From contig JAOAHY010000006.1 in NCBI GenBank assembly GCA_026414995.1, positions 1-64,000 of the forward strand: a DNA stretch of 64,000 bases, given 5' to 3'. The stretch's first letter is position 1. Each line of letters opens with the position of its first letter. This document shows positions 6,696-63,856 of this stretch, piece by piece. This stretch comes from Caldisericia bacterium (GTDB lineage: Bacteria > Caldisericota > Caldisericia > B22-G15). The notes below the pieces were generated by a model that had not been told where the DNA came from, made no database searches, and was given only the letters and a program-made list of their open reading frames with translations. The position numbers were made by a program, and so were the translations under genes.

Positions 6696-8767
6696 TGGTT
6701 GAAAGATCTAAAATAAGAAATGTTTCATTAGTTGCCCATAGTGGCGCAGGAAAAACTTCTTTAGTTGAATCAATGCTTTATCTTTCAAAATTTATACAAA
6801 AAAAAGGAAGTGTTGACAAAGGGAATACTGTTTCAGATTTTGAACCTGAAGAGATAAAAAGACATATAAGTTTATCAACATCAGTTATTCCTATTAATTG
6901 GAAAGGTTATAAAATAAACATACTAGATACACCTGGTTATGTTGAATTTTTATCAGAAGTTAAAGGTGCGCTACTTGTTTCTGAGGCAAGTCTGATTCTT
7001 GTTGATGCTACTTCCCATGTAGAAGTTGGAACTGAAAGAGTATGGGAATTTGTAAAAGAGGAAAATTTACCAACTGCTTTTGTTGTAAGTAGAATGGATA
7101 GAGAAAATGCTAATTTTAAAGAGGCAGTTGTTAGTATCAAAAAATTTTTTGGTAATGATGCAGTTCCAATTATGATTCCAATAGGTGAAGGTTTAAATTT
7201 TAAAGGATACATTAATATAATTACTCAAAAAGGTAAAATTTTTGATAATGGAACATACAAAGAAATTGAAATACCTCAAGAATTAAAAAATGATTTTGAA
7301 ACATATAAGAATGAATTAATTGAAAAAATTGCTGAAGTTGATGAAGAATTTTTAAATAAATATTTAAGCGAAGGAACTTTACAGGAAAAGGATTTGGTGA
7401 GAGGTCTTCTCTTAGGGGTAAAAAGTAGAACCCTATTTCCAATACTTTTATCATCAAGTATTAATGATATTGGTACTGAAGAAATACTTGACTTTATAAT
7501 TAATGAATTCCCAGAGCCATATCTAAATGAAAAGAGGTTTGGTTTTGATGTTAAAACAAATGAGGCTGTTGTTAGAAATTTTGATGAGAATCTTCCATTT
7601 TCAGGTCTTGTTTTTAAAACAATAATTGACCCATTTGTTGGAAGAATAAATTATATAAAAGTAATAACTGGTAAAATTATTCCTGATTCTAAAGTATATA
7701 ATGTGAATAAAGATCAAGAAGAAAGAGTATCTTCAATAGGATTTATTATAGGTAAAAATCAAGAAAAAGCTCAAGAAATTAGAGCAGGTGATATTGGAAT
7801 TATAACTAAATTAAATGTTACTTCAACAGGAGATACATTAACTCAACCAGGTTTTAATGTAAAATATAATTATTTTGAAATACCATACCCTATTATTTCA
7901 TATGCTGTTGAACCAAAGAGAAAAGAAGATGAAGATAGATTAACATCTGCACTTTTTAAAATGGCAGAGGAAGATCCAACCTTTATTGTAGAGAGAAATG
8001 ATATAACTAAACAGTTAATAATTAGAGGTACTGGAGCAACCCATATTCAGGTTATACTTGAAAGAATTTCAAGAAAATTTGGAGTTGAAGTTAATTTAAA
8101 GAAACCTGAAATCGCTTATAAAGAAACAATAAAAGGAACTGCAAAAGCTGAAGGCAAATACAAAAAACAGACTGGTGGACACGGTCAATATGGGCATTGT
8201 TTTATAGAAATTAATCCTCTTGAAAGAGGAAAAGAGTTTGAATTTGTAGACAAAATATTCGGTGGAGCTATTCCAAAACAATACATACCTGCAGTTGAAA
8301 AAGGTATAAGAGAAACAATGAAAGAGGGAATAATAGCAGGCTATCCAGTAGTTGATGTTCAAGTGATACTATATGATGGTTCATATCACCCAGTAGACTC
8401 CTCTGAACTCGCTTTTAAAATTGCTGCTTCAATGGCTTTCAAAAAAGCTTTTGTTGATGCTAACCCTATTCTTTTAGAACCTATATTAGAAGTTGAAATT
8501 AAAGTTCCTGAAAACTTTTTAGGAGATGTAATATCTGATTTAAACACAAGAAGAGGAAAAATACTGGGCATGGATTCTGATAAAGGAATTTCAATTGTAA
8601 AAGCATTGGTTCCTGAATCAGAAATGTTAACTTATGGATTAGATCTTGCTTCAATAACTCAAGGCAGAGGATATTTTACTGCAAAATTTTATAAATATGA
8701 TGAAGTTCCTCAAAAGTTAGCAGAAGAAATTATAAAGAAAAGGAAAGAAGAGTTAGAAAAACAATAG
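6692..8767 (+). CDS. EF-G-2-type translational GTPase between rpoB and rpoC
   Basis: A 691-residue five-domain EF-G paralogue: G domain (1-about 290), beta barrel, domain III, domain IV containing KYKKQTGGHGQYG, and domain V. It belongs with the EF-G-2/EF-G-like subfamily (Thermus EF-G-2) rather than canonical FusA: P-loop AHSGAGKTS (15-23) instead of AHIDAGKTT, and DTPGY (79-83) with Tyr in place of the catalytic His, which is usual in that subfamily. The guanine-specificity motif NKxD reads SRMD (133-136), which is odd. The family member in Thermus is a ribosome-dependent GTPase of unclear role. It is translationally coupled to rpoB (ATGA overlap) and 13 nt upstream of rpoC. Confidence 0.93.
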   Translation: MMVERSKIRNVSLVAHSGAGKTSLVESMLYLSKFIQKKGSVDKGNTVSDFEPEEIKRHISLSTSVIPINWKGYKINILDTPGYVEFLSEVKGALLVSEASLILVDATSHVEVGTERVWEFVKEENLPTAFVVSRMDRENANFKEAVVSIKKFFGNDAVPIMIPIGEGLNFKGYINIITQKGKIFDNGTYKEIEIPQELKNDFETYKNELIEKIAEVDEEFLNKYLSEGTLQEKDLVRGLLLGVKSRTLFPILLSSSINDIGTEEILDFIINEFPEPYLNEKRFGFDVKTNEAVVRNFDENLPFSGLVFKTIIDPFVGRINYIKVITGKIIPDSKVYNVNKDQEERVSSIGFIIGKNQEKAQEIRAGDIGIITKLNVTSTGDTLTQPGFNVKYNYFEIPYPIISYAVEPKRKEDEDRLTSALFKMAEEDPTFIVERNDITKQLIIRGTGATHIQVILERISRKFGVEVNLKKPEIAYKETIKGTAKAEGKYKKQTGGHGQYGHCFIEINPLERGKEFEFVDKIFGGAIPKQYIPAVEKGIRETMKEGIIAGYPVVDVQVILYDGSYHPVDSSELAFKIAASMAFKKAFVDANPILLEPILEVEIKVPENFLGDVISDLNTRRGKILGMDSDKGISIVKALVPESEMLTYGLDLASITQGRGYFTAKFYKYDEVPQKLAEEIIKKRKEELEKQ

Positions 8768-8780
8768 GAGGTGAATATAT

Positions 8781-11700
8781 TTGATTCAAAAGAAATTTGA
8801 TGCAATTGAAATATCATTAGCATCACCTGAAGATATATTATCCTGGTCTCATGGTGAAGTAAAAAAAGCAGAAACTATTAATTACAGAAATTTTAGACCA
8901 GAAATGGAAGGACTTTTTTGTGAAAGGATTTTTGGTCCAGTAAAAGATTATGAATGCCATTGTGGAAAACTTAAAGGTGTTAGATATAGAGGCCTTGTCT
9001 GTGAAAGATGTGGAGTTGAGGTTACTACGTCAAAAGTTAGAAGAGAAAGATTTGGACATATCACACTTGCTTCTCCAGTAGTTCATATTTGGTATTTCAG
9101 ATCAACAAATATAATTCCAGTATTACTTGATATGTCAAAGAATGATGTAGAAAAAATAGTTTATTATGCTTCTTATGTTGTTTTAGATCCAGGAAATTCT
9201 CCTTTAAAATATAAACAAGTAATTAATGAAGAAGAGTATAGAGAATATAAAGAGAGGGGATATAACTTTATAGCAAAAAGAGGTTCAGATGCAATTTTAG
9301 AGTTATTAAAATCCATTGACCTTGAAAGTTTAAGAGAAGAGTTAATGGAAGAGATAAAGAGATCTTCAACTAAGCAGAAAAAGACTTCAGCAATGAAAAG
9401 ACTTGATTATGTAGAAGCATTTTTGAAATCTGGAAATAAGCCCGAATATATGGTTTTAACAGTTCTTCCCGTTATACCTCCTGATTTACGACCTCTTTTG
9501 CCTCTTGATGGTGGAAGATTTGCATCTGTTGACTTAAATGATTTATATAGAAGAGTCATTAATAGAAACAATAGGTTAAAAAAGTTAATCGATGTTAATG
9601 CTCCAGAAATAATGTTACAGAACGAAAAGAGAATGCTTCAGGAAGCAGTAGATGCATTACTTGATAATACTCATAAAATACATCCAATTATTGGTTCACA
9701 TAATAGACCTCTTCATTCATTATCTGATATTTTAAGAGGTAAACAAGGAAGATTTAGACAGAATCTTTTAGGAAAAAGGGTTGATTATTCTGGTAGAAGT
9801 GTAATAGTTGTAGGACCAAAATTAAAACTTGATGAATGTGGTTTACCAAGAAATATGGCACTTGAACTCTTTAAACCATTCTTAATGCACAACCTTGAAG
9901 AGACAGGTATAGCACTAAACTTAAGAAGCGCAAAATGGATGATTGAACAAGCTGTTAAAGATCAAAATAGTCCTGTATGGAAAGTACTTGCTGATACAGT
10001 AAAAGATTATGTCGTACTTTTAAATAGAGCACCAACGCTTCATAGAATGAGCATTCAATCATTTAAACCTGTCCTTGTAGATGGTGAAGCAATTCATATT
10101 TCTCCTTTGGTTTGTCCCCCATATAATGCAGATTTTGATGGTGATCAAATGGCAGTTCATCTTCCTCTATCTATTGCTGCACAAACTGAAGCAAAATATT
10201 TACTTTTATCGAAATATAACATTATCTCTCCTGCACATGGTAAACCAATAACTCTACCTGTACAAGATGTAGTTGCTGGTTGTTATTATTTAACGAAAGA
10301 GAAAAAAGGTGAAAAAGGAGAAGGTTTAAAGTTTTATACAATAGAAGATCTCAACGCAGCATTAGATGAAGGAAAAGTAACATACCATACTATCATTGAT
10401 TTTTATTGGAATAAAAGATGGATAAATAATACAACTGTTGGTAGAGTCATATTCAATAATCTGGTTAAAGAAACACTTGAAGATGAAAACTTTGAATTTT
10501 TTGATAGGGTAATAGATCAAAAAACAGTAAACGATCTTTTCTTCCAAGTATTTAAAAAATATGGATTTGAAAAAACAGCAAAACTTTTAGATGAAGTTCA
10601 AAAACTTGGTTTTGAAATTGTTACTCTTTCAGGATTAACAATTGGAATGGATGATATGGTTATACCCAAAAGAAGAGACGAAATAATTAAACAAGCAGAA
10701 GAAAAAGAGAAAAAATTAAGAGAATTTTATGAAAAAGGTTTAATGTCTGAAAATGAAAGGTATAAAAAAACAATTGATGTTTGGTTGAAAGCAGGAGAAG
10801 AACTTGTTAATGAAATATTTGATACCTACAATCCATTCAATTTCTTACTCCTTATGGCAATTTCAGGTGCAAGAGGAAAACCAGAGCAAATTTTACAAAT
10901 GGTTGGAATGAGAGGGCTTATGTCTGATCCATCTGGTAGAATTATTGAGTTTCCAATTAAATCAAATTTAAAAGAAGGTTTGTCTGTTCTTGAATACTTT
11001 ATATCAACACATGGAGCAAGAAAAGGTTTAGCCGATACAGCTTTAAAAACTTCTGATGCAGGGTATTTAACAAGAAGACTTGCTGATGTTGCCCATAAGG
11101 TTTTTGTAAAATATGAGGATTGTGAAGTTGTTCCTGTTAAACCAATAGTTATAGGTGAAAAGGTTATAAAGAGTTTATACAGACAAATTGTAGGAAAAGT
11201 TGCAGCAAAAGATGTTATTGATCCAAATACTGGAGAGATAATTGTTCATGAAAATGAGGAAATAACAAGAGATAAAGCTCTTGAAATTGAAAATAAAAAT
11301 ATTGAAATTGTTTGGGTAAGGAATTTTACAGATGGAATTGAAGTTGAAGAGATAAAAGAAGGTCAAAGAATTATTGAAACTCTCGAAGAGAGGATTCTTG
11401 GAAGATATGCAGCAGAAGATATTTATTCACCGAGTGAAAAGATTGTGAAATATAATATTGAAACTGAAAAACCAGAAGAAGGATTTATAGCAAAAGATAT
11501 TGTAGACGAAAAACTAAATATAATTGCAAGAGAAGGCGAAAAAATAACAACTGAATTATTAAAGAAACTAATTGATAACAATATTAAAGAGATATTAATT
11601 AAGATACCATCTAAAAGAGAGTTAATCGTTAAAAGAGGAGAAGAAATTGATGAAGTTGCAGTAAACAAAATTAAAGAATATGGTATTAAGAAAGTCAAAA

Positions 11701-12830
11701 TAAGATCAGTTCTTACATGTTCTTCACCAAATGGAGTTTGTGCTAAATGTTATGGAAGAGATCTTTCAACCGGAAAACTTGTAAATTTAGGTGAAGCAGT
11801 AGGAATTATTGCATCTCAATCAATCGGTGAACCAGGAACTCAATTAACATTAAGAACTTTCCATACTGGTGGAATTGCAGCTAAAGATATCACTTCTGGT
11901 TTACCCAGAGTTGAAGAATTGTTTGAAGTAAGAAAACCAAAAGGAAGTGCAATAATTTCAGAAGTTACAGGATATGTAACAGTTAGAGATGAAGAGGATG
12001 CAAGAAAAATTATAATAACACCAAGAACAAGAGAAATAGCTGTTAATATTTATGAAAAATTAATTGAAAAATTAAATAATTTAATGTCAGTTGACTCAAA
12101 TTTAACAATAACAGATCTAGATTTAGATAGAGAAACATTAGAAGTTTTAACTGAAGCTAAAATAGAAAAGGTTAAAGATATTTTAAATTTAGAAAAAGAA
12201 GAGTTAATTAAAAAATTAATTGGAAGAGAAACTATCTACATAGTTCCCTATGGTAAGACATTAAGAGTTCAAAATGGAGATTATGTTAATGTGGGTGATA
12301 GATTAACAGAAGGACCTCTTGATCCTCATAAAATTTTCCAAATTAAAGGTTTAAGAGAAACAGAACAATATCTATTACAGGAAATCCAGAAAGTTTATAA
12401 AAGTCAAGGTGTTACAATAAATGACAAACACATAGAAATAATATTAAGAGAATTAACAAGAAAAGCCATAATAATTAATCCAGGGGATACTAAATTTTAT
12501 CCTGGTCAAGAAGTTGAAAGAAGTGAAGTTGAAGAAGAAAATAGAGTTGCTAAAGCAGAAAGTAAAAATCCTGCAACCTATAAAATTTTATTACTAAGAT
12601 TAACCAAAGCAGCTCTTTCTGCAGATTCTTTCTTATCAGCATCTTCTTTCCAAGAAACTACTAAAGTACTTGCTGAAGCAGCAATCAGTGGAAAGATAGA
12701 TACATTAGAAGGACTAAAAGAAGCAATTATTGTAGGAAGTATGATACCTGTTGGAACTGGTTTTTCAGAGTATGATGGTATAAAAATTATTGAAAAGAAG
12801 GAATTAGTTGAAGAAAGGGAGAGTGTTTAA
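8781..12830 (+). CDS. rpoC: RNA polymerase beta' subunit RpoC
   Basis: A 1349-residue beta' subunit. Seen: N-terminal zinc finger (ECHCGKLKG...LVCERCG, about residues 58-77), catalytic NADFDGDQMAVHLPL (about 446-460, three Mg-binding Asp), the trigger-loop/bridge region, and the second zinc site CSSPNGVCAKCYGRD. Between about 810 and 970 are three repeated AxDI..P..GE-type units, known from other Gram-positive beta' subunits. The start is TTG, chosen because AGGAGGTG lies 9 nt upstream and the protein begins exactly where the family does. Its stop lies in the loop of a terminator. Confidence 0.98.
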   Translation: MIQKKFDAIEISLASPEDILSWSHGEVKKAETINYRNFRPEMEGLFCERIFGPVKDYECHCGKLKGVRYRGLVCERCGVEVTTSKVRRERFGHITLASPVVHIWYFRSTNIIPVLLDMSKNDVEKIVYYASYVVLDPGNSPLKYKQVINEEEYREYKERGYNFIAKRGSDAILELLKSIDLESLREELMEEIKRSSTKQKKTSAMKRLDYVEAFLKSGNKPEYMVLTVLPVIPPDLRPLLPLDGGRFASVDLNDLYRRVINRNNRLKKLIDVNAPEIMLQNEKRMLQEAVDALLDNTHKIHPIIGSHNRPLHSLSDILRGKQGRFRQNLLGKRVDYSGRSVIVVGPKLKLDECGLPRNMALELFKPFLMHNLEETGIALNLRSAKWMIEQAVKDQNSPVWKVLADTVKDYVVLLNRAPTLHRMSIQSFKPVLVDGEAIHISPLVCPPYNADFDGDQMAVHLPLSIAAQTEAKYLLLSKYNIISPAHGKPITLPVQDVVAGCYYLTKEKKGEKGEGLKFYTIEDLNAALDEGKVTYHTIIDFYWNKRWINNTTVGRVIFNNLVKETLEDENFEFFDRVIDQKTVNDLFFQVFKKYGFEKTAKLLDEVQKLGFEIVTLSGLTIGMDDMVIPKRRDEIIKQAEEKEKKLREFYEKGLMSENERYKKTIDVWLKAGEELVNEIFDTYNPFNFLLLMAISGARGKPEQILQMVGMRGLMSDPSGRIIEFPIKSNLKEGLSVLEYFISTHGARKGLADTALKTSDAGYLTRRLADVAHKVFVKYEDCEVVPVKPIVIGEKVIKSLYRQIVGKVAAKDVIDPNTGEIIVHENEEITRDKALEIENKNIEIVWVRNFTDGIEVEEIKEGQRIIETLEERILGRYAAEDIYSPSEKIVKYNIETEKPEEGFIAKDIVDEKLNIIAREGEKITTELLKKLIDNNIKEILIKIPSKRELIVKRGEEIDEVAVNKIKEYGIKKVKIRSVLTCSSPNGVCAKCYGRDLSTGKLVNLGEAVGIIASQSIGEPGTQLTLRTFHTGGIAAKDITSGLPRVEELFEVRKPKGSAIISEVTGYVTVRDEEDARKIIITPRTREIAVNIYEKLIEKLNNLMSVDSNLTITDLDLDRETLEVLTEAKIEKVKDILNLEKEELIKKLIGRETIYIVPYGKTLRVQNGDYVNVGDRLTEGPLDPHKIFQIKGLRETEQYLLQEIQKVYKSQGVTINDKHIEIILRELTRKAIIINPGDTKFYPGQEVERSEVEEENRVAKAESKNPATYKILLLRLTKAALSADSFLSASSFQETTKVLAEAAISGKIDTLEGLKEAIIVGSMIPVGTGFSEYDGIKIIEKKELVEERESV

Positions 12831-17058: not shown

Positions 17059-18489
17059 ATGATTAGAGTTAGATTTCCTCCATCACCAACTGGTTTTATG
17101 CATATAGGAAATGTAAGAACAGCTCTTTTTAATTTTCTTTTCGCAAGAAAAAACAATGGAAAATTTATTTTAAGAATAGAAGATACTGATAAGGAGAGAT
17201 CCAAAAAAGAATATGAAGATGATATAATTGAGGGTTTAAAATGGTTAAACTTAAACTGGGATGAGGGCCCAGATATAGGTGGTCCTTTTGGACCATATAG
17301 ACAATCAGAAAGATTAGAAATTTATAAATTTTATATAGATAAACTTTTGGAGGAAGGTAAAGCATACTTATGTTTTTGTAGCGAAGAGGATATTGAGAGA
17401 GATAGGGAAGATATGCTTAAAAAAGGTCTTATGCCTAAATATTCAAGAAGGTGCAGAAATTTAAATAAAGATGAAATAGAAAAAAAATTAAAAGATAATT
17501 CTAGTCCAGTTGTAAGATTTAAAACACCATTAGATGGGGAAGTTGTTGTAGAAGATGAATTGAGAGGAAGACTTACTTTTCCAATTGAAAATTTAGATGA
17601 TTTTGTGATTTTGCGTTCAGATGGTATGCCAACATATAATTTTGCTGTTGTTATTGATGATGCATTAATGAAGATCAATTATGTAATTCGAGGAGAAGAT
17701 CATCTTCATGGAAACACACCAAGACAAATTTTGCTCTATAAAGCACTAAATTTCCCATTACCAAAATTCGTTCACTTACCAATGATACTCGGTGAAGATC
17801 ATACCAAACTTTCAAAAAGACATGGCTCTGTTTCGTTAAGAGATTATAAAAATGAAGGTTATCTACCTGAAGCTCTCGTAAACTATATGGCACTACTTGG
17901 ATTTTCGCCTAAGACAAAAGAAAAAGAAATATTCTCTCTTCAAGAATTAATAGATGAGTTTAGTATTGAGAACCTTTCAAAAAGTAATGCCATATTTTCT
18001 CCTTCAAAAATAAGATGGATGAATCATAAATATATTGAGATGTTATCTATAGATGAACTTTTGAAAAGAATTAAAGATTTTTATAAAGATAGTGATTTAG
18101 AGATTAAAAATGATGATTGGTATAAAGAATTTTTAAGACTTATGAGAGATCATATATTTGTTCTTAGTGATATAAAAAAGTTAGTAAAAGAAATATTTGA
18201 ACCTGAAAAATTATCAGATGAGAAAATTTCTTATTTAAGAGAAAATAAGAATTTAATTCTAGAGTTTTATGATGCTATTGAAAAATTTGAAAAATGGAAT
18301 GAAAATAATATTTTAAATTTGATCAAAGATATAGGGAAAAAGCTTTCTCTCAAAGGAAAAGACCTTTATCATCCATTAAGAGTACTTATAACTCATCAAG
18401 ATCAAGGACCAGAAATTTATATTTATATTTATCTTCTTGGTAAAGATAAAACACTAAATAGAATTGAGGAGGTATTAACTATTTTATGA
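17059..18489 (+). CDS. gltX: Glutamyl-tRNA synthetase (copy 1)
   Basis: A 476-residue class I synthetase. HIGH-type motif HIGN at 15-18, KLSKRHGS at about 249-256, and the CFC...YSRRC zinc-type cysteines in the acceptor-binding insertion are present. It charges tRNA-Glu, and in organisms without GlnRS also tRNA-Gln. AAAGGAGG precedes the ATG. It overlaps cysS by 4 nt, the usual gltX-cysS neighbourhood. A second, distinct copy lies at 52149-53549, so the two may have divided tRNA specificity. Confidence 0.95.
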   Translation: MIRVRFPPSPTGFMHIGNVRTALFNFLFARKNNGKFILRIEDTDKERSKKEYEDDIIEGLKWLNLNWDEGPDIGGPFGPYRQSERLEIYKFYIDKLLEEGKAYLCFCSEEDIERDREDMLKKGLMPKYSRRCRNLNKDEIEKKLKDNSSPVVRFKTPLDGEVVVEDELRGRLTFPIENLDDFVILRSDGMPTYNFAVVIDDALMKINYVIRGEDHLHGNTPRQILLYKALNFPLPKFVHLPMILGEDHTKLSKRHGSVSLRDYKNEGYLPEALVNYMALLGFSPKTKEKEIFSLQELIDEFSIENLSKSNAIFSPSKIRWMNHKYIEMLSIDELLKRIKDFYKDSDLEIKNDDWYKEFLRLMRDHIFVLSDIKKLVKEIFEPEKLSDEKISYLRENKNLILEFYDAIEKFEKWNENNILNLIKDIGKKLSLKGKDLYHPLRVLITHQDQGPEIYIYIYLLGKDKTLNRIEEVLTIL

Positions 18490-51458: not shown

Positions 51459-52161
51459 AACCTATCTTGAATGTCCTTTAAAATACTACTTTTTATATGA
51501 ATTAAAACTTCAAGAAAAACCGAAACCTTATAAATCTTTTGGGAAGTCACTTCATCTTACACTTTCAAAGTTTCATTCACTTCCAAAATATCCTTCCTTT
51601 GATAATTTAAAGGAAATCTATCAAAAAAATTGGATTAATGAAGGATTTAGAAATGAAGAAGAAGAAAAAAAAGAATTTCTAAGAGGCCTTGAATTACTTA
51701 AAAAATATTATTATAAAAATATTTTTCATTATGATAAAGCATACAAAGTTGAAAAATATATAAATTTTAAAATTAATGAATTTGAAATATATGGTTTTGT
51801 CGATAGAATTGATAAGATAAATGATGATTTTGAATTAATTGAATATAAGACAGGAAAATACAGTATCGATTTTAATTCTATTGGACTTATTGATGAAAGC
51901 GAAATACTTCAAATGTCAATTTATTATTTTGCATTTGAAAGAGAATTTAATAAACCTCCTAAATTTTTATCAATTTATTATTTAACTCTTGATTTTGATT
52001 ATAAAAAGAGAATTTATTTAAAAGAAGAAAACTTAAATAAATCATTAGATTTAATACTAAATGTAGGAAAAAAAATCAAAAGTGGAGATTTTTTTAAAAA
52101 AGAAAATAATTTTTGTAAATTTTGCGATTTTAAAAAGGAGTGTTCGGAATGGAAAAAATAA
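51433..52161 (+). CDS. RecB/Cas4-type PD-(D/E)xK nuclease with 4-cysteine iron-sulphur site
   Basis: A 242-residue single-domain nuclease. It starts SFSKIKTYLECPLKYYFLYE (first Cys), has the catalytic GFVDRID and IEYKTGKYS motifs, and ends CKFCDFKKECSEW, giving one N-terminal and three C-terminal cysteines of the AddB/Cas4 4Fe-4S pattern. No cas genes or CRISPR repeats are near, so a DNA repair or end-processing role is more likely. The start lies inside coaE by 26 nt. No recognised operon partner. Confidence 0.82.
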   Translation: MKLSFSKIKTYLECPLKYYFLYELKLQEKPKPYKSFGKSLHLTLSKFHSLPKYPSFDNLKEIYQKNWINEGFRNEEEEKKEFLRGLELLKKYYYKNIFHYDKAYKVEKYINFKINEFEIYGFVDRIDKINDDFELIEYKTGKYSIDFNSIGLIDESEILQMSIYYFAFEREFNKPPKFLSIYYLTLDFDYKKRIYLKEENLNKSLDLILNVGKKIKSGDFFKKENNFCKFCDFKKECSEWKK

Positions 52162-53549
52162 GAGTTAGATTTGCTCCATCCCCAACGGGATTGTTACATA
52201 TTGGAAGCGTAAGAACAGCTTTTATAAATTATCTATTTGCAAAAAAGGAAAACGGTACATATATTTTAAGAATAGAAGATACAGATGTTGAAAGGTCAAA
52301 AAAAGAATCTGTTGAAGCAATTTTAAGTGGTTTAAAATGGCTTAAGATAAATTGGGATGAGGGTCCATATTTTCAAAGCGAAAGATTAGAGATTTACAAA
52401 AATTATCTAGGAGTTCTTCTTAATAAGGGATACGCTTATCCTTGTTTCTGTAAAAAAGAAGAAATAGAAAAAGAGAAAGAAAATGCGATAAAAAATGGCA
52501 AAATATATAAGTATAGTGGAAAATGTAAAAATTTAGATAAAAAAGAAGTTTATAGAAAGTTAAGTTTAAATGAAGAACATGTTTATAGATTTAATGTAAC
52601 AAAAGGCAAAGTTATATTTAATGATTTAATAAAAGAAAGAGTTGAGTTTGATAATGAGATATTAGATGATTTTATAATTGTAAGAAGCGATGGAATGCCA
52701 GTATATAATTTTTCATGTGTTGTAGATGATATTGAGATGAAGATTACTCATGTTATTAGAGGTGAGGATCATCTTTCTAATACACATAAGCAAATACTTT
52801 TATATGATGCATTTGGAGTAAAACATCCAAAATTTGGACATCTCCCATTAATACTTGGAAAAGATAGAGAAAAATTGTCAAAAAGACATGGTTCTGTCTC
52901 AATTGAAGAGTTTATGAAGGAAGGCTACCTTCCTGAAGCTATATTAAACTATATTTTTTTAATCGGATTTTCATTAAGAGAAACAAAAGAAATATTTAAT
53001 ATTGATGAAATGATTAATATTTTCTCAATTGAGAAGATATCAAAAAATTCACCAGTTTTTGATCATGATAAGTTAAAATGGATAAATTCATATTATATTA
53101 GAAATTTAGATGATGAAACAATTCTAACATTATCAGATAAATTTTTACCACCTCAATTGAAATTAAAAGGAGTTCATTTTTTAAAAAAATTATTCAAAGA
53201 AATAAAAGGAAATATAAAAGTTTTAAATATAGAAAACCTTACAGAATATTTTTATAAAGAGCCTCTATATGACAAAGATATAATAAGTGATTTAAAGAAA
53301 AGTAAAATTTTTATAGATTTTTTAAAGATTTTATATAAAAGAATCATAGAAATAGAAAAATTTGATAGTATTAATATTGAAAAAGAAATAAAAATGATTT
53401 TAATTGAATTAAATATAACATTAAAAGAAATTGCACAACCTTTAAGGTATATATTAACAGGAAGATTTGCCTCACCAGGTTTATTTATATTAATGGAACT
53501 TTTAGGAAAAGAAATTGTTTTAAAAAGAATAGAAAATCTTATATGTTAA
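52149..53549 (+). CDS. gltX: Glutamyl-tRNA synthetase (copy 2)
   Basis: A 466-residue class I synthetase distinct from the copy at 17059. HIGS at 17-20, KLSKRHGS at about 250, CFC...YSGKC zinc-type cysteines. The ATG at 52149 is preceded by AAGGAG with correct spacing. It lies next to mcsA, mcsB, radA, yacL, ispD and ispF, a neighbourhood that is close to gltX in Bacillus. Two GluRS proteins in one genome often separate tRNA-Glu from tRNA-Gln charging for the GatCAB route; which copy does which cannot be told here. Confidence 0.94.
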   Translation: MEKIRVRFAPSPTGLLHIGSVRTAFINYLFAKKENGTYILRIEDTDVERSKKESVEAILSGLKWLKINWDEGPYFQSERLEIYKNYLGVLLNKGYAYPCFCKKEEIEKEKENAIKNGKIYKYSGKCKNLDKKEVYRKLSLNEEHVYRFNVTKGKVIFNDLIKERVEFDNEILDDFIIVRSDGMPVYNFSCVVDDIEMKITHVIRGEDHLSNTHKQILLYDAFGVKHPKFGHLPLILGKDREKLSKRHGSVSIEEFMKEGYLPEAILNYIFLIGFSLRETKEIFNIDEMINIFSIEKISKNSPVFDHDKLKWINSYYIRNLDDETILTLSDKFLPPQLKLKGVHFLKKLFKEIKGNIKVLNIENLTEYFYKEPLYDKDIISDLKKSKIFIDFLKILYKRIIEIEKFDSINIEKEIKMILIELNITLKEIAQPLRYILTGRFASPGLFILMELLGKEIVLKRIENLIC

Positions 53550-53569: not shown

Positions 53570-54088
53570 ATGTATTGTGATATATGTAAAAAAAGAGAAG
53601 CATCTATTTTTATTACAGAGATTATAAATGGAGAAAAAAAATCACTTCATTTATGTTTTGAGTGTGCAACTAATATTGGAATAAAAGGCATACTCAAGGA
53701 ACTCAATATTCCTTATGATGAAAATATAATAAAGAAATTTTTAAGTTTAATGCCTGGATTTATTGAAGAAAAAGAAAAAGAGAAAATATGCAATACTTGT
53801 GGAACAAAATTTGATGAATTTAAAAAGAGTGGTTTCTTGGGATGTAATGAATGCTATGAAATATTTAAAGATGAGTTAAGACCAATAATTTTAAATCTTC
53901 ATGGTAGCATGAAGCATACAGGAAAAAGAAAAGGAGAAAAATTCACTCCAAAAACTACAATTGATGAGAAAATCAAAAATTTAAAGAGAGAACTTGAGTA
54001 TGCAATAGAAGAAGAAAGATATGAGGATGCGGCTAAAATAAGAGACAAAATAAAAGAGCTTTTAAATAATGTTAAAAACAATTCTTAA
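53570..54088 (+). CDS. mcsA: McsA, activator of protein-arginine kinase
   Basis: A 172-residue protein with four Cys pairs (CDIC, CFEC, CNTC, CNEC) forming zinc fingers, and a C-terminal UVR (UvrB/UvrC-type) helix pair ending EYAIEEERYEDAAKIRDKIKEL. It activates McsB in the stress response. AGAGGT precedes the ATG. It overlaps mcsB by 20 nt. ctsR is absent upstream and clpC downstream. Confidence 0.9.
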   Translation: MYCDICKKREASIFITEIINGEKKSLHLCFECATNIGIKGILKELNIPYDENIIKKFLSLMPGFIEEKEKEKICNTCGTKFDEFKKSGFLGCNECYEIFKDELRPIILNLHGSMKHTGKRKGEKFTPKTTIDEKIKNLKRELEYAIEEERYEDAAKIRDKIKELLNNVKNNS

Positions 54089-55121
54089 AAATTTACCTAA
54101 TTGGATTAAAACTTATGGTATAAATGGAGATGTAACTATTAGCAGTAGAATCAGAATAGCTAGAAATATAGAAGGATTTAAATTTCCTTTTAAATGTTCA
54201 GTTGCTGAAAAAAATAAAATTGTTGAAAAATTAAAATATAAAATTGAAAATTCAAGTTTTTATAAAAAATATAATTTATTTGGACTAAATATAATTGATT
54301 TGAAGGATGTTGAGAGATTAGCTCTTGTTGAAATGCACATAGTTTCGCCATTATTCATTGAAAATCCTTATGGAAAGTACCTTTATTTGAGTGAAGACGG
54401 TTCTATTAGTATAATGATTAATGAAGAGGATCATATTAGATTACAAATAATAAAAGAGGGTTTTTCTCTTGATGAAATTATTATAAATGCATTTGAAATA
54501 ATCGATGAAATTGAAGATAAAATTGAATTATCTTATTCAAACACACTGGGTTTCATTACTTCTTGTCCAACAAATTTAGGCACAGGTTTAAGAGCATCTT
54601 TACTTATGCATCTACCAATATTAACTTTAATTGGTAAAATGAATGAAATAATAGAAAATTCGACTAAATTTTCAATTACGATTAGAGGAACATTCGGTGA
54701 AGGTAGTGAAATTATTTCATCGCTTTTTCAAATTTCAAATACAACTACACTTGGGAAAAGCGAAGAAAATATTATTGATAGTGTTAAAAAGATAGGAATA
54801 GAAATTCTTAAAATTGAAAGAAATGAAAGAGACAAATATTTTATTAATAAAAAAAATTTTTTATTAGATGAAATAAGAAAAGCAAAAAGTAAATTAAAAT
54901 ACTCATATAAAATTTCATATAAAGAAGCAAGTGAAATTCTATCGATTTTGAGATTAGGTTCTATATTAAAAGTTATTGATATACCAATTGAATTATTAAA
55001 TGAACTTTTGATGAAAATTAGGTCTAATATTATGAAAGTTGAGTTCGATACACCTTTGGAAAGTTTCATTGATAATTTAAGAGCAGAATATTTAAAGAAT
55101 ATATTAATGGGTTATATATGA
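54069..55121 (+). CDS. mcsB: Protein-arginine kinase McsB
   Basis: A 350-residue phosphagen-kinase-like enzyme: SSRIRIARNIEGFKFP, the loop INEEDHIRLQ (catalytic Glu region) and SCPTNLGTGLRASLLMHLP with the conserved cysteine, then RGTFGEGSE for nucleotide binding. It phosphorylates arginines to mark proteins for ClpCP degradation. The allosteric RDxxRA region near the C terminus is not obvious. clpC is not adjacent. ATGA overlap with radA. Confidence 0.93.
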   Translation: MLKTILKNLPNWIKTYGINGDVTISSRIRIARNIEGFKFPFKCSVAEKNKIVEKLKYKIENSSFYKKYNLFGLNIIDLKDVERLALVEMHIVSPLFIENPYGKYLYLSEDGSISIMINEEDHIRLQIIKEGFSLDEIIINAFEIIDEIEDKIELSYSNTLGFITSCPTNLGTGLRASLLMHLPILTLIGKMNEIIENSTKFSITIRGTFGEGSEIISSLFQISNTTTLGKSEENIIDSVKKIGIEILKIERNERDKYFINKKNFLLDEIRKAKSKLKYSYKISYKEASEILSILRLGSILKVIDIPIELLNELLMKIRSNIMKVEFDTPLESFIDNLRAEYLKNILMGYI

Positions 55122-57564: not shown

Positions 57565-58216
57565 AAGTAAAAGGTTCAATGATGATAAAATTTTCTATAA
57601 AATTAATGATTTACCATTAATATATTACACATTAATTCCCTTTATAAAATGTGACAAAATAGATAAAATTGTAGTAGTTCTTTCTAAAGATAGAGTTGAT
57701 GAAGGTATTAATTTTTTAAAAAGTTTTACTAAAATCATTGGAATTGTTGAGGGAGGTGAAGAGAGAAAAAATTCTGTTTTTAATGGGTTAAAATTTTTTT
57801 ATAATAATGAAAAAATAGACTATGTCTTAATACATGATGGTGCAAGGTCAAATATAAAGATTGAAATAATTGAAAAGGTGATAGAAAATTTAGATATGAA
57901 TTCGTGTGTTATACCAGTAGTTCCAGTGATTGAAACCTTAAAATATATTGAAAATGGAAATATCATAAAAACACTTGACAGAGATAAAATTTTTATAGCG
58001 CAGACACCTCAAGGTTTTCCCTTTCTAAAAATATTTGAGTTATTAAATAAGTATATTAACGAAAAATTATTTGATGATTCATTAGTTTTTGAAATGGAAG
58101 GCTTAAAAGTTAAAGCCATAGAAGGGGATATTGAAAATATAAAGGTAACATATAAAAGTGATATTTTAAAAGTTATTGATTTCATTAAAAGAAATGAGAA
58201 TCGGTATAGGATTTGA
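57533..58216 (+). CDS. ispD: 2-C-methyl-D-erythritol 4-phosphate cytidylyltransferase
   Basis: A 227-residue nucleotidyltransferase with the CTP loop VIVGGGKSKRF (here GGGKSKRF instead of the more usual AAGxGxRM), EGGEERKNSVFNGL, VLIHDGARSN and IFIAQTPQGF. MEP isoprenoid pathway. A GGAGG within the sequence precedes later codons, but the ATG at 57533 fits the family start. It overlaps ispF by 23 nt. Confidence 0.93.
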   Translation: MIGTVIVGGGKSKRFNDDKIFYKINDLPLIYYTLIPFIKCDKIDKIVVVLSKDRVDEGINFLKSFTKIIGIVEGGEERKNSVFNGLKFFYNNEKIDYVLIHDGARSNIKIEIIEKVIENLDMNSCVIPVVPVIETLKYIENGNIIKTLDRDKIFIAQTPQGFPFLKIFELLNKYINEKLFDDSLVFEMEGLKVKAIEGDIENIKVTYKSDILKVIDFIKRNENRYRI

Positions 58217-58661
58217 TTTTCATATAATTAAAAAAAATTTACCAATGTATATTGGAGGAGTATTAATAAATAAAGATTTTGGTTTTTATAGTAACACTGA
58301 TGGAGATATTTTAATTCATGCTATCGTTGATGCAATTTTAGGGGCAATTGGAGAGAAAGATATTGGTGAACTATTTGATGAAAATTGGAAAGGAAGAAGT
58401 AGCATCAAGATTTTAGAAAATACTTTAGAGATAATGAGAAATAAAAATTTTGAAATTGTTAATATAGATGCTGTTATTATACTTGAAAAACCGAAAATTA
58501 TTGATTTTAAGGATATAATTCTTGAAAATTTATCTAAGATTATGAAAATTGATAAAGAAAAGATCAATATAAAAGGAAAAACAATGGAAAAAATTGGATT
58601 CATAGGCAAAAGAAAAGGTGGTGCTTCTTTTGTAGTTGTTCTTCTTAAAGAAATTTGTTAA
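58194..58661 (+). CDS. ispF: 2-C-methyl-D-erythritol 2,4-cyclodiphosphate synthase
   Basis: A 155-residue enzyme: GIGFDFH (zinc Asp/His), STNT-type loop SNTDGDILIHAIVDAILGA (third metal ligand His), KDIGELF and TMEKIGFIGKRKGG. Next MEP-pathway step after IspE. The ATG at 58194 gives the standard start and length. It converges on polX with a 4-nt overlap. Confidence 0.94.
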   Translation: MRIGIGFDFHIIKKNLPMYIGGVLINKDFGFYSNTDGDILIHAIVDAILGAIGEKDIGELFDENWKGRSSIKILENTLEIMRNKNFEIVNIDAVIILEKPKIIDFKDIILENLSKIMKIDKEKINIKGKTMEKIGFIGKRKGGASFVVVLLKEIC

Positions 58662-60352
58662 CTCTTTCTTTTAATATTTAAAAATTTTTGTAATTCTTTA
58701 TAATTATATGTATTTATTATTTTTTTCTCATCTATTAGAGCTCTTTTTGCAATATTAACTCCATATTCATTAACAAACTTAAGTTGTGGTGATATATGGG
58801 CATCAGAGTTTATTGAAAAATAAATATTATATTTATTTGCTTCAAACAAAAGAGAAGATGAAAGGTCTAACCTATCTAATGTCGAATTTATCTCAAGAAA
58901 TGTTTTTGTTTTTTCAGCTTCAATAAATAAACTTTTCCAATCTAAATCCATCTCTTTTCTTTCCCCAATTTTTCTACAACTTGGATGAGCAATAATTGTA
59001 ATGTAAGGATTATTCATTGCATTTATGTATCTTTTAGTATTAATATCTTTAGATTCATTAAAATTAAAATGAATTGATCCTATAACATAATCAAGATCTT
59101 TTAATATTTCCTCTTCTACATCAATAGAACCATCAATTCTAATATTCGCTTCAACACCAAAAAGAATTTTTATATTTGGAAAAATCTTTTCAATTTTTTT
59201 AATTTCTAATCTTTCTTCTAAGATTTTTTCTCTTTTCATACCTTTAGCAATTTTCAAATCTTCAGTATGGTCTGTAATTCCTATATACTCATAACCCATT
59301 TCAACTGCTTCTTTAACCAAATCATAAATTGTTGATATTCCATCTGAATAATTTGAATGTATATGGAGATCTCCTTTTATTGAGTAATTAAAAGACAAAT
59401 TATTATCAATTTTAAGATAAATTTGCCAATTATCTCTAAATTCTGGTGGAATATACGGAATTGAAAAAAGATAAAAAATTTCTTTTTCACTCAAATTTTC
59501 TAATTTTAAAAATCCTATTTTAGTAGATATAATATTCATATTTCTTGCTTTCTCATTTAAAAAAAGATTAAAACTTTTTGGTCCAGTATAATAAATTAAA
59601 GCTGAACCAAAATAATTTTCCGGTATAAAATTTATAATAATTTCCAATTCAGAATAAATTGTTTTGAATTTTATAAAGTTATTGTTTTTTTCAATTAATA
59701 CAAAATCATTAGAATTTTTTAAGAAATTTAAAATTTTTTCTATATTATAATTAAACGCAAGCAAATTCAAGTTTTTTATAACTTCTTTTTTTCTTCTTAC
59801 ACTACCCGTTAATATAATTTCATTTATACCAATTTTTTCTAATTCATTTTTTACAAAGTTAAAAACAGAAATTCCATATGAGTATGAAAATTCATTTTGT
59901 AATTTATTGTATGTATTCAAATTTTTATTAATAAATTCTTCACCTTTTATCCCAATTTCTTTAATATTCCTTAATTTTTTTTCCTTTAAAGCTTGTTTTA
60001 AATCATTTATATCAACAATATTTAATTCTTTATAAAGAATATTAGCAAGTTTATTACCTATTCCTGGAATTTTTGTTAACTTTATTAATGAATTTGGAAT
60101 TTCTTTTAAAGAAGATTCAATTTCTTCGCTTTTCCCGTTAAATACAAGTTCTCTTAAAATTTTTCTTATATAATCTTTCTCAATAAAATATTTTTCAAAT
60201 AGACTAAAATTTTCTCTATTTAATCTAAAATTTAGTGATTGAATTGTATCTGCAACTATTTTAAGTTCTGTAATTATTTTTTTGTTAATATTTTTGAATT
60301 TTAGGGCATCAATATAATATAAGATTTTATTTAAGATAATGAAATTATCCAA
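58658..60352 (-). CDS. PolX-PHP protein with apparently inactive polymerase site
   Basis: A 564-residue protein laid out like bacterial DNA polymerase X: helix-hairpin-helix (about 90-110; LTKIPGIGNKLANILYKEL), polymerase palm with GSVRR (183-187), and C-terminal PHP phosphoesterase (about 325-560). The metal-binding DxD of the palm reads N194-L-N196 and the third Asp position is Glu, while the PHP ligands GDLHIHSNYSDG, ITDHTED, FGVEANI, GSIHF, IAHPSCR and SDAH are intact. It is therefore likely to be a 3'-5' exonuclease/AP-processing enzyme without polymerase activity. It overlaps pheT by 8 nt, and pheT-polX order is known in Firmicutes. Confidence 0.88.
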   Translation of the reverse strand: MDNFIILNKILYYIDALKFKNINKKIITELKIVADTIQSLNFRLNRENFSLFEKYFIEKDYIRKILRELVFNGKSEEIESSLKEIPNSLIKLTKIPGIGNKLANILYKELNIVDINDLKQALKEKKLRNIKEIGIKGEEFINKNLNTYNKLQNEFSYSYGISVFNFVKNELEKIGINEIILTGSVRRKKEVIKNLNLLAFNYNIEKILNFLKNSNDFVLIEKNNNFIKFKTIYSELEIIINFIPENYFGSALIYYTGPKSFNLFLNEKARNMNIISTKIGFLKLENLSEKEIFYLFSIPYIPPEFRDNWQIYLKIDNNLSFNYSIKGDLHIHSNYSDGISTIYDLVKEAVEMGYEYIGITDHTEDLKIAKGMKREKILEERLEIKKIEKIFPNIKILFGVEANIRIDGSIDVEEEILKDLDYVIGSIHFNFNESKDINTKRYINAMNNPYITIIAHPSCRKIGERKEMDLDWKSLFIEAEKTKTFLEINSTLDRLDLSSSLLFEANKYNIYFSINSDAHISPQLKFVNEYGVNIAKRALIDEKKIINTYNYKELQKFLNIKRKS

Positions 60353-62768
60353 TTTTTTTCCTTATCAAACCATTAAGTTCTTTTTCTATTCTGATTTCTA
60401 TTTTCTCTATTATTTCTTTTATATCTTCATCTGTTAATGTTTTTTCAGAGCTTGAAAAAACAAGATTTATAGCATAACTTCTATTATCTATGCCAATTTT
60501 TTCATCTTCATAAATATCAAAAAGTGAAAATCTATTTAAAATTTTTCCTGATTCCTCTTTAATTATTTTAATCAAATCATTAAATTTTTTATCCTTAGGA
60601 ATAATAATTGATAAATCGAAAGTTAAGCTTGGAAATTTTGTTATTTCTTTAAAATCTTTTTTAATAGAAACATACTTTTTCAATTTCTCAAGTTCTATTA
60701 TTGATATATAAACTCTTTGATTTATATTTAGTTTTTCAATTAAATCATCACAAATTTCTCCAATTTCTCCTACAATTTGATTATTTACATATATTTTTCC
60801 ATATCTTGTAGGATGGAAAATATTTGATTTATCATTATTTATTATAGTAAATTCATTTATATTCAATTCATTAAATAATTTTTCAAGTATTCCTTTTAAA
60901 TGATAAAAGTTATAAAATCTATCTTTTTCTCCCCAATATTTTTCAATTATCTTACCTGTCAAACCAACTATAAGTTCCTCTTCTTCTAAATATTTATCTT
61001 CTTTTTCATAATAAATTTTTCCAATTTCAAATATAGCTATGTTTTTATTTCCAAAACTAATGTTTTTTTCAATAACTTTTAATATACTCGGTAAAAGATT
61101 TGTTCTTAGAACATTTTGATCTTGTCTTAAAGGATTAATTAATTCGATAGGTTTTCTATCAAAACTAAAACTTAAAAGATAGTCTCTATCAAGAAGCGAA
61201 AGAGTTAATACTTCATTAAGACCAAGAGATGTTAATATTTGTGAAATTTTATTATTGAATTTAATTTCAAAATTATCTATATAGGGGTCAATTTTAATAT
61301 AAGGTACTGTTGGTGAAATATTTTCAATACCATAATATCTAACTAATTCTTCAATAAGGTCTATTTCTGTTTTTACATCTGGTCTGTTATATTCCTGAAT
61401 AAACAAAGAATAATCGTCTCCTTTTTCTATTTCTTTAAATCCACCTCTATTTAGAATTTCAACAATTTCCTCATTTTTTATATTAAATCCTATAATTTTT
61501 CTTGCTCTCTCAAACCTTAATTTTATTGGTTCAATTTTTAAAGATTCGGAATAGATATCAATTGGTTTATATATTTTTTCACCTTGAAATGTTTGAGCTG
61601 ATGAAAATCCAATTAAAAGAGTTTTATTTATATCTATTCCTTTCTCAAATCTTGATGAAGCTTCTGTTTCAATTTTAAGTTTTCTTTTTGTTTTAGAAAT
61701 TGATGCAGGATTAAAATATGCAGATTCAAGTAAAATGTTTTTTGTATCAAAGTTTACCTCTGTTTCTTTACCACCTATAATTCCAGCTATTGCAATCGGC
61801 CTTAATGCATCACATATAAGTAACATTCCTTCCTCTAATTCTCTCTCTTTACCATCAAGAGTAATAATTGTTTCACCTTTTTTTGCCTCTCGAACTATAA
61901 CCTTTTTTTCTAATTTATCTAAATCGAATGCATGTAAAGGTTGACCATATTCAAACATAAATACATTAGTTGAATCAACAATATTATTTACAGGTCTTTG
62001 TCCTATTGACAATAATTTTCTTAAATTAAAAATATTAGATTTTCCAACATTAACTCCTTCAATAACTACTCCAACATATCTTGGACATAAATAGGTATTT
62101 TTAATCTCAATTTCAAATTTAGTTTCTGGTAAATTTTCTAAATTTAAAATTAGCTCTTTATTATTATTAAATTTTCCCAATCCATATCTTTCTAATTCTT
62201 TTGCTAATCCATATAGTGAAAGAAGATCTCCTCTGTTTAATGTTTTTATTTCAAAAATATAATCATTAAGCCATAAAGCATTCTTTAAGTCTTCATATAA
62301 AGGAGTATCATCAGGTAATACAAATATTCCTTCCTTATATATATCTGATAAAGATGAATCATCAATTCCTATTTCATCATATGATAAAAGAAGAGCCTCT
62401 GAAATATATCCTTCTATATTAATAGGTTTTACATTAATTAGTTCATTAGTTTTCTCTCCATTTTGTATTTTATGTTTATAAACAGCACCTCCTGGTAATG
62501 CAATAGGTACAATATCATTTATTTTTAAATTTTTAGCTCCTGTTATAGATTTTAATATTGTATTTTTAAATTGTATAAAACATAATGATAAATTATTATT
62601 AATTTTTTTAATGTCTTTAATTTTACCTGTAAAACAATTTTTTATATCACTCTCCTTTTTGTAAATCTCTTCAATTTCAAGACCCCTGAAAATTGTAATA
62701 TTTTTTATTTCTTCTATGTCTTTTTTTAATTCAATAAATTCACTTAACCAATTTAATGAAACTTTCAT
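60345..62768 (-). CDS. pheT: Phenylalanyl-tRNA synthetase beta subunit
   Basis: An 807-residue beta chain: start KVSLNWLSEFIEL, EMAP-type tRNA-binding domain (about 40-150), B3/B4 editing region (about 200-370; NIVDSTNVFMFEYGQPLHAFD), B5 domain, catalytic-like core and C-terminal FDX-ACB domain (ITKFPSLTFDLSIIIPKD). It pairs with PheS as an alpha2-beta2 enzyme. 11 nt after pheS, with AAGGAGAAAA upstream of the ATG. Confidence 0.96.
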   Translation of the reverse strand: MKVSLNWLSEFIELKKDIEEIKNITIFRGLEIEEIYKKESDIKNCFTGKIKDIKKINNNLSLCFIQFKNTILKSITGAKNLKINDIVPIALPGGAVYKHKIQNGEKTNELINVKPINIEGYISEALLLSYDEIGIDDSSLSDIYKEGIFVLPDDTPLYEDLKNALWLNDYIFEIKTLNRGDLLSLYGLAKELERYGLGKFNNNKELILNLENLPETKFEIEIKNTYLCPRYVGVVIEGVNVGKSNIFNLRKLLSIGQRPVNNIVDSTNVFMFEYGQPLHAFDLDKLEKKVIVREAKKGETIITLDGKERELEEGMLLICDALRPIAIAGIIGGKETEVNFDTKNILLESAYFNPASISKTKRKLKIETEASSRFEKGIDINKTLLIGFSSAQTFQGEKIYKPIDIYSESLKIEPIKLRFERARKIIGFNIKNEEIVEILNRGGFKEIEKGDDYSLFIQEYNRPDVKTEIDLIEELVRYYGIENISPTVPYIKIDPYIDNFEIKFNNKISQILTSLGLNEVLTLSLLDRDYLLSFSFDRKPIELINPLRQDQNVLRTNLLPSILKVIEKNISFGNKNIAIFEIGKIYYEKEDKYLEEEELIVGLTGKIIEKYWGEKDRFYNFYHLKGILEKLFNELNINEFTIINNDKSNIFHPTRYGKIYVNNQIVGEIGEICDDLIEKLNINQRVYISIIELEKLKKYVSIKKDFKEITKFPSLTFDLSIIIPKDKKFNDLIKIIKEESGKILNRFSLFDIYEDEKIGIDNRSYAINLVFSSSEKTLTDEDIKEIIEKIEIRIEKELNGLIRKKIG

Positions 62769-62779
62769 CTTTTTTCTCC

Positions 62780-63802
62780 TTAAAATTCATTAAGAAACCT
62801 TAAATCATTTTCATAAAAATATCTTATATCTGATATTCCAAATTTTATCATTGCTACTCTTTCAACTCCAAGACCGAATGCAAAACCTTGCCATTCTTCT
62901 GGATCAATATCAACATTTTTTAACACATCAGGATGAACCATGCCAGCGCCTAATATTTCAACATATCCAGTATATTTGCATACACTACAACCTCTTCCAT
63001 AACATAAACTACAAGTTGCAGCAACCTCAAGACCTGGTTCAACAAATGGGAAATATGAAATATAAAACTTTGTTTGAGTTTTTTCTCCAAACATTTTTTT
63101 TGCGAATAAATCGATAATACCCATCAAATCTGCTAAAGATATATTTTTATCTATCATAAGACCTTCTACTTGATGAAATATAGGAGAATGAGAAGCATCA
63201 AACGGATCTCTTCTAAAACATCTTCCAGGTGAAATAATTCTTAATGGTGGTTTAATTTTTTCCATTGTTCTTATTTGAACAGGAGAAGTGTGAGTTCTAA
63301 GAAGTAATCCATTTGGTAAATAAAATGTATCCCACATATCTCTAGATGGATGATATTTTGGTATGTTTAAAGCCTCAAAGTTATAATATTCATTTTCAAT
63401 TTCTGGTCCAAATGAGAGATGAAAACCCATTCTCATAAAAATATCAATAATTTCATTTTCAACAATTTTTAATATATGTCTTTTGCCCAAATTATAAGGG
63501 TATCCAGGTAATGTCTCATCAATTTTTTCTTCTTGGATTTTTAGTTTTTTTAATTTATCTAATATCTTAATTTTGCTTTTTTCAATGGCTAATTCAATTT
63601 CATTTTTTAATATATTAATTAATTCTCCATATTTTCTTTTCTCTTCAAAATCCACAATTGTCTTAAACTTTTCTGTTAAATTTTTAATAATCCCCTTTTT
63701 GCCAAGAAATTTAACTCTAACTTTTTCTAAATCTTCAAGAGTTTCTATTTTATCTAAATCAGCAAAGAGTTCATTCAAGATTTCATCCTTTTTTACATCC
63801 AT
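62780..63802 (-). CDS. pheS: Phenylalanyl-tRNA synthetase alpha subunit
   Basis: A 340-residue class II catalytic chain: coiled-coil N region, motif 2 LRTHTSPVQIRTM and RCFRRDPFDASHSPIFHQVEG, Phe-binding PFVEPGLEVAATC, and GAGMVHPDVLKNVDID with GFAFGLGVERVAMIKFGI (motif 3). The ATG at 63802 is favoured because AAGGAGC lies 5-6 nt upstream; an in-frame ATG at 63832 would begin before the -10 box's predicted transcript start. Confidence 0.96.
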   Translation of the reverse strand: MDVKKDEILNELFADLDKIETLEDLEKVRVKFLGKKGIIKNLTEKFKTIVDFEEKRKYGELINILKNEIELAIEKSKIKILDKLKKLKIQEEKIDETLPGYPYNLGKRHILKIVENEIIDIFMRMGFHLSFGPEIENEYYNFEALNIPKYHPSRDMWDTFYLPNGLLLRTHTSPVQIRTMEKIKPPLRIISPGRCFRRDPFDASHSPIFHQVEGLMIDKNISLADLMGIIDLFAKKMFGEKTQTKFYISYFPFVEPGLEVAATCSLCYGRGCSVCKYTGYVEILGAGMVHPDVLKNVDIDPEEWQGFAFGLGVERVAMIKFGISDIRYFYENDLRFLNEF

Positions 63803-63826
63803 TATAAGCTCCTTTTTATACAATGT

Positions 63827-63856
63827 TTGCATTTATTATATCTAAAAGTGTATAAT
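63827..63856 (+). promoter_or_regulatory. Promoter of the partial gene at 63864 (leaderless)
   Basis: TTGCAT (63827-63832), 18-nt spacer, TATAAT (63851-63856), then exactly 7 nt to ATG 63864. No Shine-Dalgarno. Confidence 0.65.

Follow-up and report, generated by a model that had tools for sequence, protein, structure and literature searches.

A class of noncanonical PolX proteins was published in 2022 (Prostova et al., PMC9226535), the criterion being that at least one acid of the catalytic triad in the palm domain is substituted. Pol beta and its relatives cannot do without the aspartate triad, and the two Deinococcus members of the class that were assayed are without polymerase activity and have kept their exonuclease (PMC9226535). 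The activity expected of such proteins is a 3'-5' exonuclease that depends on Mn2+. Residues of the deoxynucleoside triphosphate (dNTP) pocket, i.e., N279, D276/Lys, the GS motif and the steric gate, are typically lost as well, which is described as characteristic and not as required; deletions in the palm and fingers, with marks of fewer than 77 and fewer than 55 residues, respectively, are likewise frequent and not required (PMC9226535). Genomes with two PolX proteins and, in Bacilli and Clostridia, a neighbouring MutS2 gene are also reported for the class; PolX pairs are regarded there as mostly horizontally acquired (PMC9226535). A role in non-homologous end joining (NHEJ) has also been suggested for the class. 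Here, we describe a PolX gene in a 64,000-nucleotide stretch of DNA (the window) of a Caldisericia bacterium (GenBank assembly GCA_026414995.1, contig JAOAHY010000006.1). Judged by its sequence, the encoded protein belongs to this already known class: its triad positions are Asn, Asn and Ile, and its PHP nuclease ligands are intact. It does not carry the deletions, since the palm has 80 and the fingers 62 residues, as compared with 81 and 68 in canonical relatives when the borders of our own alignment are used.

Palm and PHP active sites of the window protein

The gene and its parts, all on the minus strand, are the following:
58658..60352, minus strand: noncanonical polX, 564 amino acids, TTG start (open reading frame list, profile matches and predicted fold)
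59837..60352, minus strand: 8-kDa and thumb domains, about residues 1-172, with a helix-hairpin-helix near 91-138 (boundaries approximate)
59624..59836, minus strand: palm, about residues 173-243, with GSVRR at 183-187, Asn194, Asn196 and Ile239 (boundaries approximate)
59771..59773, minus strand: Asn194 codon, at the site of catalytic Asp 1 (alignment)
59765..59767, minus strand: Asn196 codon, at the site of catalytic Asp 2 (alignment)
59636..59638, minus strand: Ile239 codon, at the site of catalytic Asp 3 (alignment)
59429..59623, minus strand: fingers, about residues 244-308, with the dNTP-site motif YYTGPKSFN (Lys259, Asn262; boundaries approximate)
58673..59380, minus strand: PHP nuclease domain, residues 325-560, with the ligands H330, H332, H362, E401, H428, H456, E487, D517 and H519

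The strand is corrected here with respect to a first-pass annotation of the same DNA; the plus strand at 58658-60352 is full of stop codons. The gene product is a PolX by profile, sequence and fold. Its best NCBIfam match is PolX PRK08609 with 343.5 bits, which is below the 426-bit cut-off of that model, and in Pfam the Pol beta thumb and PHP domains exceed their cut-offs with the helix-hairpin-helix slightly below its own. With phmmer, it matches Thermus PolX 3au2 with an E-value of 5.6e-69. The AlphaFold2 model, with a mean predicted local distance difference test score of 91.8, matches Thermus PolX 3au6_A along its whole length (Z 41.5, root-mean-square deviation (rmsd) 3.5 over 544 residues).

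The first-pass annotation had reported a retained GSVRR motif, asparagines at the positions of the metal-binding aspartates, a glutamate at the third site and a complete set of PHP ligands. The GSVRR motif is indeed present, and both the HMMER alignment and our own alignments to Thermus PolX put Asn194 and Asn196 on the aspartates of its GDLDF motif; as a control, Deinococcus PolX returned AEE, which is its published triad. The third catalytic aspartate, however, aligns with Ile239, and Glu237 lies two residues upstream. In the model, strands 194-200 and 237-243 carry the triad positions. The window protein thus has Asn, Asn and Ile where a canonical PolX has three acidic palm ligands, whilst all nine PHP ligands are in place (HHHEHHEDH). 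A true DxD elsewhere in the palm, which the annotation had named as something to look for, was not found: D-x-D is absent from residues 140-320, where the only acid-x-acid triplets are ELE at 170, ELE at 235 and EKE at 289, which rules out an alignment shift masking a real DxD.

Conservation of the substitutions was assessed in a phylum set of 54 genomes, 23 of which belong to families f1, which includes the window's genome (G000), and f3. Nineteen noncanonical proteins were aligned (4 from f1 and 15 from f3), excluding an interrupted gene in G002 and a split gene in G033. The first site is Asn in 18 of these and Asp in one (G044), the second is Asn in 13 and Asp in 6, and the third is Lys in 15, Asn in 2, Ile in one and Leu in one; in f3, 14/15 proteins have Lys there. 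Because 18/19 near-full-length orthologues have Asn at the first site and none has an acidic residue at the third, chance and sequencing error as sources of the Asn pair are excluded. The same data bear on the idea of a still-active polymerase, in which Asn194 and Asn196, together with Glu237 on the strand of the third site, would coordinate metal sufficiently to allow slow synthesis. Most of the dNTP pocket is indeed retained, and Glu237 does lie within strand 237-243, close to the third site. However, residue 237 is E, D, D and P across the four f1 proteins and mostly non-acidic in f3, the third site is never acidic, and the aspartate triad is described as indispensable to Pol beta and related enzymes (PMC9226535). 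Such residual synthesis is therefore highly improbable.

Very probably, the window protein is a noncanonical PolX of the exonuclease type, which would bind gapped or nicked DNA and trim 3' ends without adding nucleotides. We infer the absence of synthesis, the nuclease activity, the DNA binding and the repair step served from sequence and predicted fold. The 8-kDa, thumb and helix-hairpin-helix parts would bind the gapped or nicked DNA, and the metal-dependent PHP nuclease would trim or clean the 3' ends. Nucleotide addition is predicted to be impossible because all three metal ligands of the palm are gone, and template-directed synthesis, where needed, would fall to the canonical PolX that the genome encodes elsewhere. 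As to the repair step, a role in NHEJ is unlikely because searches of 41 genomes detected no Ku and no LigD polymerase domain (0/41 for each), whilst the Bacillus subtilis controls were matched; a partnership of the window protein with that pathway was rejected on these grounds. Our guess from the gene neighbourhood is cleaning of 3' ends in base-excision or recombination repair, perhaps together with MutS2.

The canonical copy and the history of the pair

A canonical PolX with the triad DDD is encoded in the window's genome at G000:C18, and the organism has thus not lost PolX synthesis. The genome also encodes a separate, stand-alone PHP protein (G000:C2:77083-77739). If genes that are split or incomplete at the ends of contigs are included, the noncanonical copy is found in 21/23 and the canonical copy in 19/23 genomes of f1 and f3. 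Sixteen of these genomes are near-complete, i.e., at least 90% complete, including G003 and G044 with 6 and 7% contamination, respectively; all 16 have the noncanonical copy, in one case with an in-frame stop, and 14 have the canonical copy, which is missing from G004 and G035. In the search of the phylum set, families f6 and f7 showed canonical PolX where one was found, and no full-length PolX match was obtained in families f2 and f5. Searches of the open-licence PMC literature brought up no description of two PolX proteins in Caldisericum.

Phylogenies were quick trees with Shimodaira-Hasegawa-like approximate likelihood-ratio (SH-aLRT) supports. Proteins shorter than 300 amino acids, including L062, L085, L089, L098, L100 and L122, whose best match could not be extended into a long reading frame, were removed before alignment, and near-copies were removed before the later trees; 55 of the 65 proteins in the length range from the genome contigs, plus the window protein, entered the fold alignment. 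The canonical copies cluster with the proteins of f7, Dictyoglomota and Atribacterota with a support of 99, and the f1, f3 and f4 noncanonical copies split off from all other proteins with supports of 98-99. How they relate to the Deinococcus-type cluster differs between trees, as the two are joined at a support of 42 in one and separated by branches with supports of 98 and 96 in another, with long branches; the Bacteroidetes/Deinococcus cluster is represented here by Deinococcus, Mesorhizobium, Microvirga and one Chloroflexi protein only. In the free trees, the noncanonical copies of f1 and f3 do not form one clade, and the constrained tree was 8.7 log units higher. Duplication within the lineage, i.e., both copies as one clade, was marginally rejected by the approximately unbiased (AU) test (p-AU 0.047) and not rejected when f4 was added (p-AU 0.092). 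L093, labelled as Caldisericota, is placed away from the window's relatives.

Selection was estimated per domain in genome pairs as the ratio of nonsynonymous to synonymous substitution rates (dN/dS) by the Nei-Gojobori count. Between G000 and G002, the genome with the nearest relative in the set, dN/dS of the noncanonical copy is 0.12 in the 8-kDa and thumb domains, 0.47 in the palm, 0.51 in the fingers and 0.08 in the linker and PHP domain; the corresponding values of the canonical copy are 0.045, 0.046, 0.056 and 0.062. In this species pair, the palm and fingers are thus about ten-fold looser in the noncanonical than in the canonical copy, and the PHP domain is constrained. The amino-acid differences show the same: 51/135 in palm and fingers vs. 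77/428 elsewhere in the noncanonical copy (p=5.6e-6), against 10/142 vs. 40/432 in the canonical copy (p=0.49). The marked relaxation belongs to the window's pair, because other noncanonical pairs have lower values, of 0.15-0.25 in the palm (one undefined) and 0.01-0.12 in the fingers. Canonical pairs vary too, with a palm dN/dS of 0.25 and 0.28 in two of them.

The relaxed values of about 0.5 could mean that the gene is on its way out, its polymerase half decaying now and the PHP domain to follow. The G002 ortholog (L003, G002:C5:8193-9881), 77% identical to the window protein, would fit with that, as its codon 214, within the palm, is an in-frame TAA; its PHP half is still conserved. Decay is nevertheless very unlikely, given a whole-gene dN/dS of 0.06-0.15 in five pairs and the presence of the noncanonical copy in more of the near-complete genomes (16/16) than the canonical one (14/16). 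Three observations do weigh against an exonuclease-type protein working beside a synthesizing partner. Family f4 has a single PolX, which is noncanonical with the triad KDR, and a canonical partner is thus not obligatory. The stop codon in G002 could be an error of assembly or a sign that this species lost the gene recently. Finally, in the f3 pair G029 and G031, the dN/dS of the noncanonical copy is 0.15 in the palm and 0.05 in the fingers; with these domains still constrained, the polymerase half may do more than hold DNA.

The nucleotide pocket

In the window protein, just two residues of the dNTP site differ, with Pro replacing the Ser of the GS motif and Tyr replacing Phe; the Lys and Asn are kept. 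The pocket Asn is retained in 17/19 and the Lys in 18/19 of the aligned noncanonical proteins. Pocket sites were defined as those named in PMC9226535 whose conservation among the canonical copies reaches 90% or more, which yielded 10 pocket sites to be compared with 55 other canonically conserved sites in palm and fingers, a site being counted as kept when the majority retains it. In f1, 9/10 pocket sites vs. 10/55 other sites are kept (p=2.4e-5) and, in f3, 9/10 vs. 20/55 (p=0.0021); the figures are 5/10 vs. 19/55 in f4 (p=0.28) and 6/10 vs. 14/55 in three Deinococcus-type proteins (p=0.039).

We dropped pocket retention as a mark of the window's lineage, since a Bacillota NNF protein (G399) and an NDN protein (G420) also have an intact pocket despite the lost triad. 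The Bacillota sample, in which 398 genomes were searched and the loci of the best 30 profile matches were read, is biased towards the window query. By sequence, then, pocket-keeping noncanonical PolX is a subtype found in more than one phylum and not an invention of this lineage. In the trees, the Bacillota triads NNF, NDN, NDD, NYD, DDN, EEN, KEN and KVE fall in one clade with a DDD protein, which fits with repeated losses of the triad in this phylum. That clade comprises L214, L226, L215, L216, L220, L225, L219, L218 and L238, with varied triads around a canonical member.

The kept pocket could mean that the protein is a pseudo-polymerase that binds dNTPs without catalysis, with the Lys of f3 at the metal-ligand site, and whose occupancy regulates the PHP nuclease; this would refine the exonuclease-type reading rather than oppose it. 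Preferential retention of pocket sites in f1 and f3 and the near-invariant Lys at the third site in f3 argue for it. However, several pocket residues may be kept just for the fold or for DNA contact, the Ser of TGSK is Pro in 4/4 f1 proteins, and, in the window's pair, selection on palm and fingers seems relaxed; we consider nucleotide binding of this kind unlikely. Decidedly unlikely is its extension to an ancient, work-dividing PolX pair, in which the canonical copy would fill gaps and the copy at the pheST-mutS2 locus would sense nucleotides and tell its PHP domain to trim or to leave a 3' end. If true, a Lys would replace a metal ligand in a sensing pocket in f3, in genomes without detected Ku or LigD polymerase domain.

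The first-pass proposal that synthesis was lost with nuclease and DNA binding retained is still the best reading of the sequence, and it agrees with a class of which two members were assayed. The change of role it proposed for a repair enzyme stands as far as predicted loss of synthesis goes; it is not new in kind, the nucleotide pocket is kept, and the genome retains a canonical PolX. What is added is that the predicted exonuclease-only class is placed in another deep bacterial lineage, as one of a long-kept pair with the canonical copy at a separate locus. Moreover, the loss of the metal site and that of the dNTP pocket, coupled in most of the published class, come apart here, and the role of the dead polymerase half is therefore directly testable, with the canonical paralogue as a natural control.

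Gene neighbourhood and comparison with described PolX proteins

The genes flanking polX in the window are the following:
60345..62768, minus strand: pheT, the 3' end of which overlaps the start of polX by 8 bases on the same strand
62780..63832, minus strand: pheS
58176..58661, plus strand: ispF, convergent to polX, located where families f3 and f4 have mutS2

The noncanonical polX lies directly 3' of pheT in 5/5 f1, 16/16 f3 and 3/3 f4 loci fetched with flanks, the order in G033 of f3 being seen through its other contig. In f3, mutS2 comes next after polX, overlapping or abutting it, in 15/15 loci that reach that far, and it is also downstream of polX in 3/3 f4 loci; in f1, mutS2 is elsewhere (G000:C11) and convergent ispF has its place. 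The canonical copy has neither pheT nor mutS2 as a neighbour. The shared gene order argues for the f1, f3 and f4 noncanonical genes being orthologous. In Bacillota, pheT and mutS2 are near polX in 13/13 loci checked with flanks (10 re-fetched ones plus L069, L086 and L110), though not always adjacent.

Several further features were seen. The PolX proteins of f4 (L188-L190, L020 and L023) combine GDIRR or GEVRR with KDR, which resemble Deinococcus-type motifs, yet occupy the pheST-mutS2 locus in the three cases fetched with flanks. Downstream of mutS2 in f3 is a gene labelled DinG-like from its sequence. The canonical copy lies within a few kb of uvrB (labelled from sequence) in 8 f3 loci and not near it in four f1 and four other f3 loci fetched. 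Elsewhere in the window, a full-length elongation factor G gene (6692-8767, plus strand; named by NCBIfam) has an unusual place between two genes named from their sequence:
3270-6695: rpoB
8781-12830: rpoC
The window also contains two bacterial gltX-family glutamate--tRNA ligase genes (17059-18489 and 52140-53549, plus strand), one of which possibly encodes an enzyme that charges tRNA-Gln for later amidation, and an mcsA-mcsB-like pair for a protein arginine kinase and its activator (53570-55121, plus strand). Both members of this pair score below the NCBIfam cut-offs; if the phylum assignment is right, the pair falls outside Bacillota.

The window protein resembles the described noncanonical PolX proteins (PMC9226535) in its altered triad, the PHP consensus HHHEHHEDH and the full five-domain layout. 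Unlike most published members, the window-type copies keep the pocket Asn and Lys, and they have fingers of 61-62 residues vs. 68 in canonical proteins and a palm of 76-81 vs. 81. It shares with Deinococcus radiodurans PolX (2w9m) an altered triad, which is AEE there, and intact PHP ligands (Z 39.1, rmsd 2.7 over 400 residues), whereas the latter has GDVRR and LLRSGEHFA at the pocket motifs, a palm of 69 vs. 80 residues and, in one tree, a separate branch. With Thermus thermophilus PolX (3au2, 3au6), it has the overall fold and the GSxRR and TGxK motifs in common, but there the triad is the canonical DDD and the first PHP ligand is Gln. The PolX of the Bacillota pheS-pheT...polX...mutS2 locus is alike in its neighbours, which recur in all ten re-fetched loci and the three others; it differs in that many copies have the DDD triad, next to several triad-less ones (NNF, NDN, EEN and KEN).
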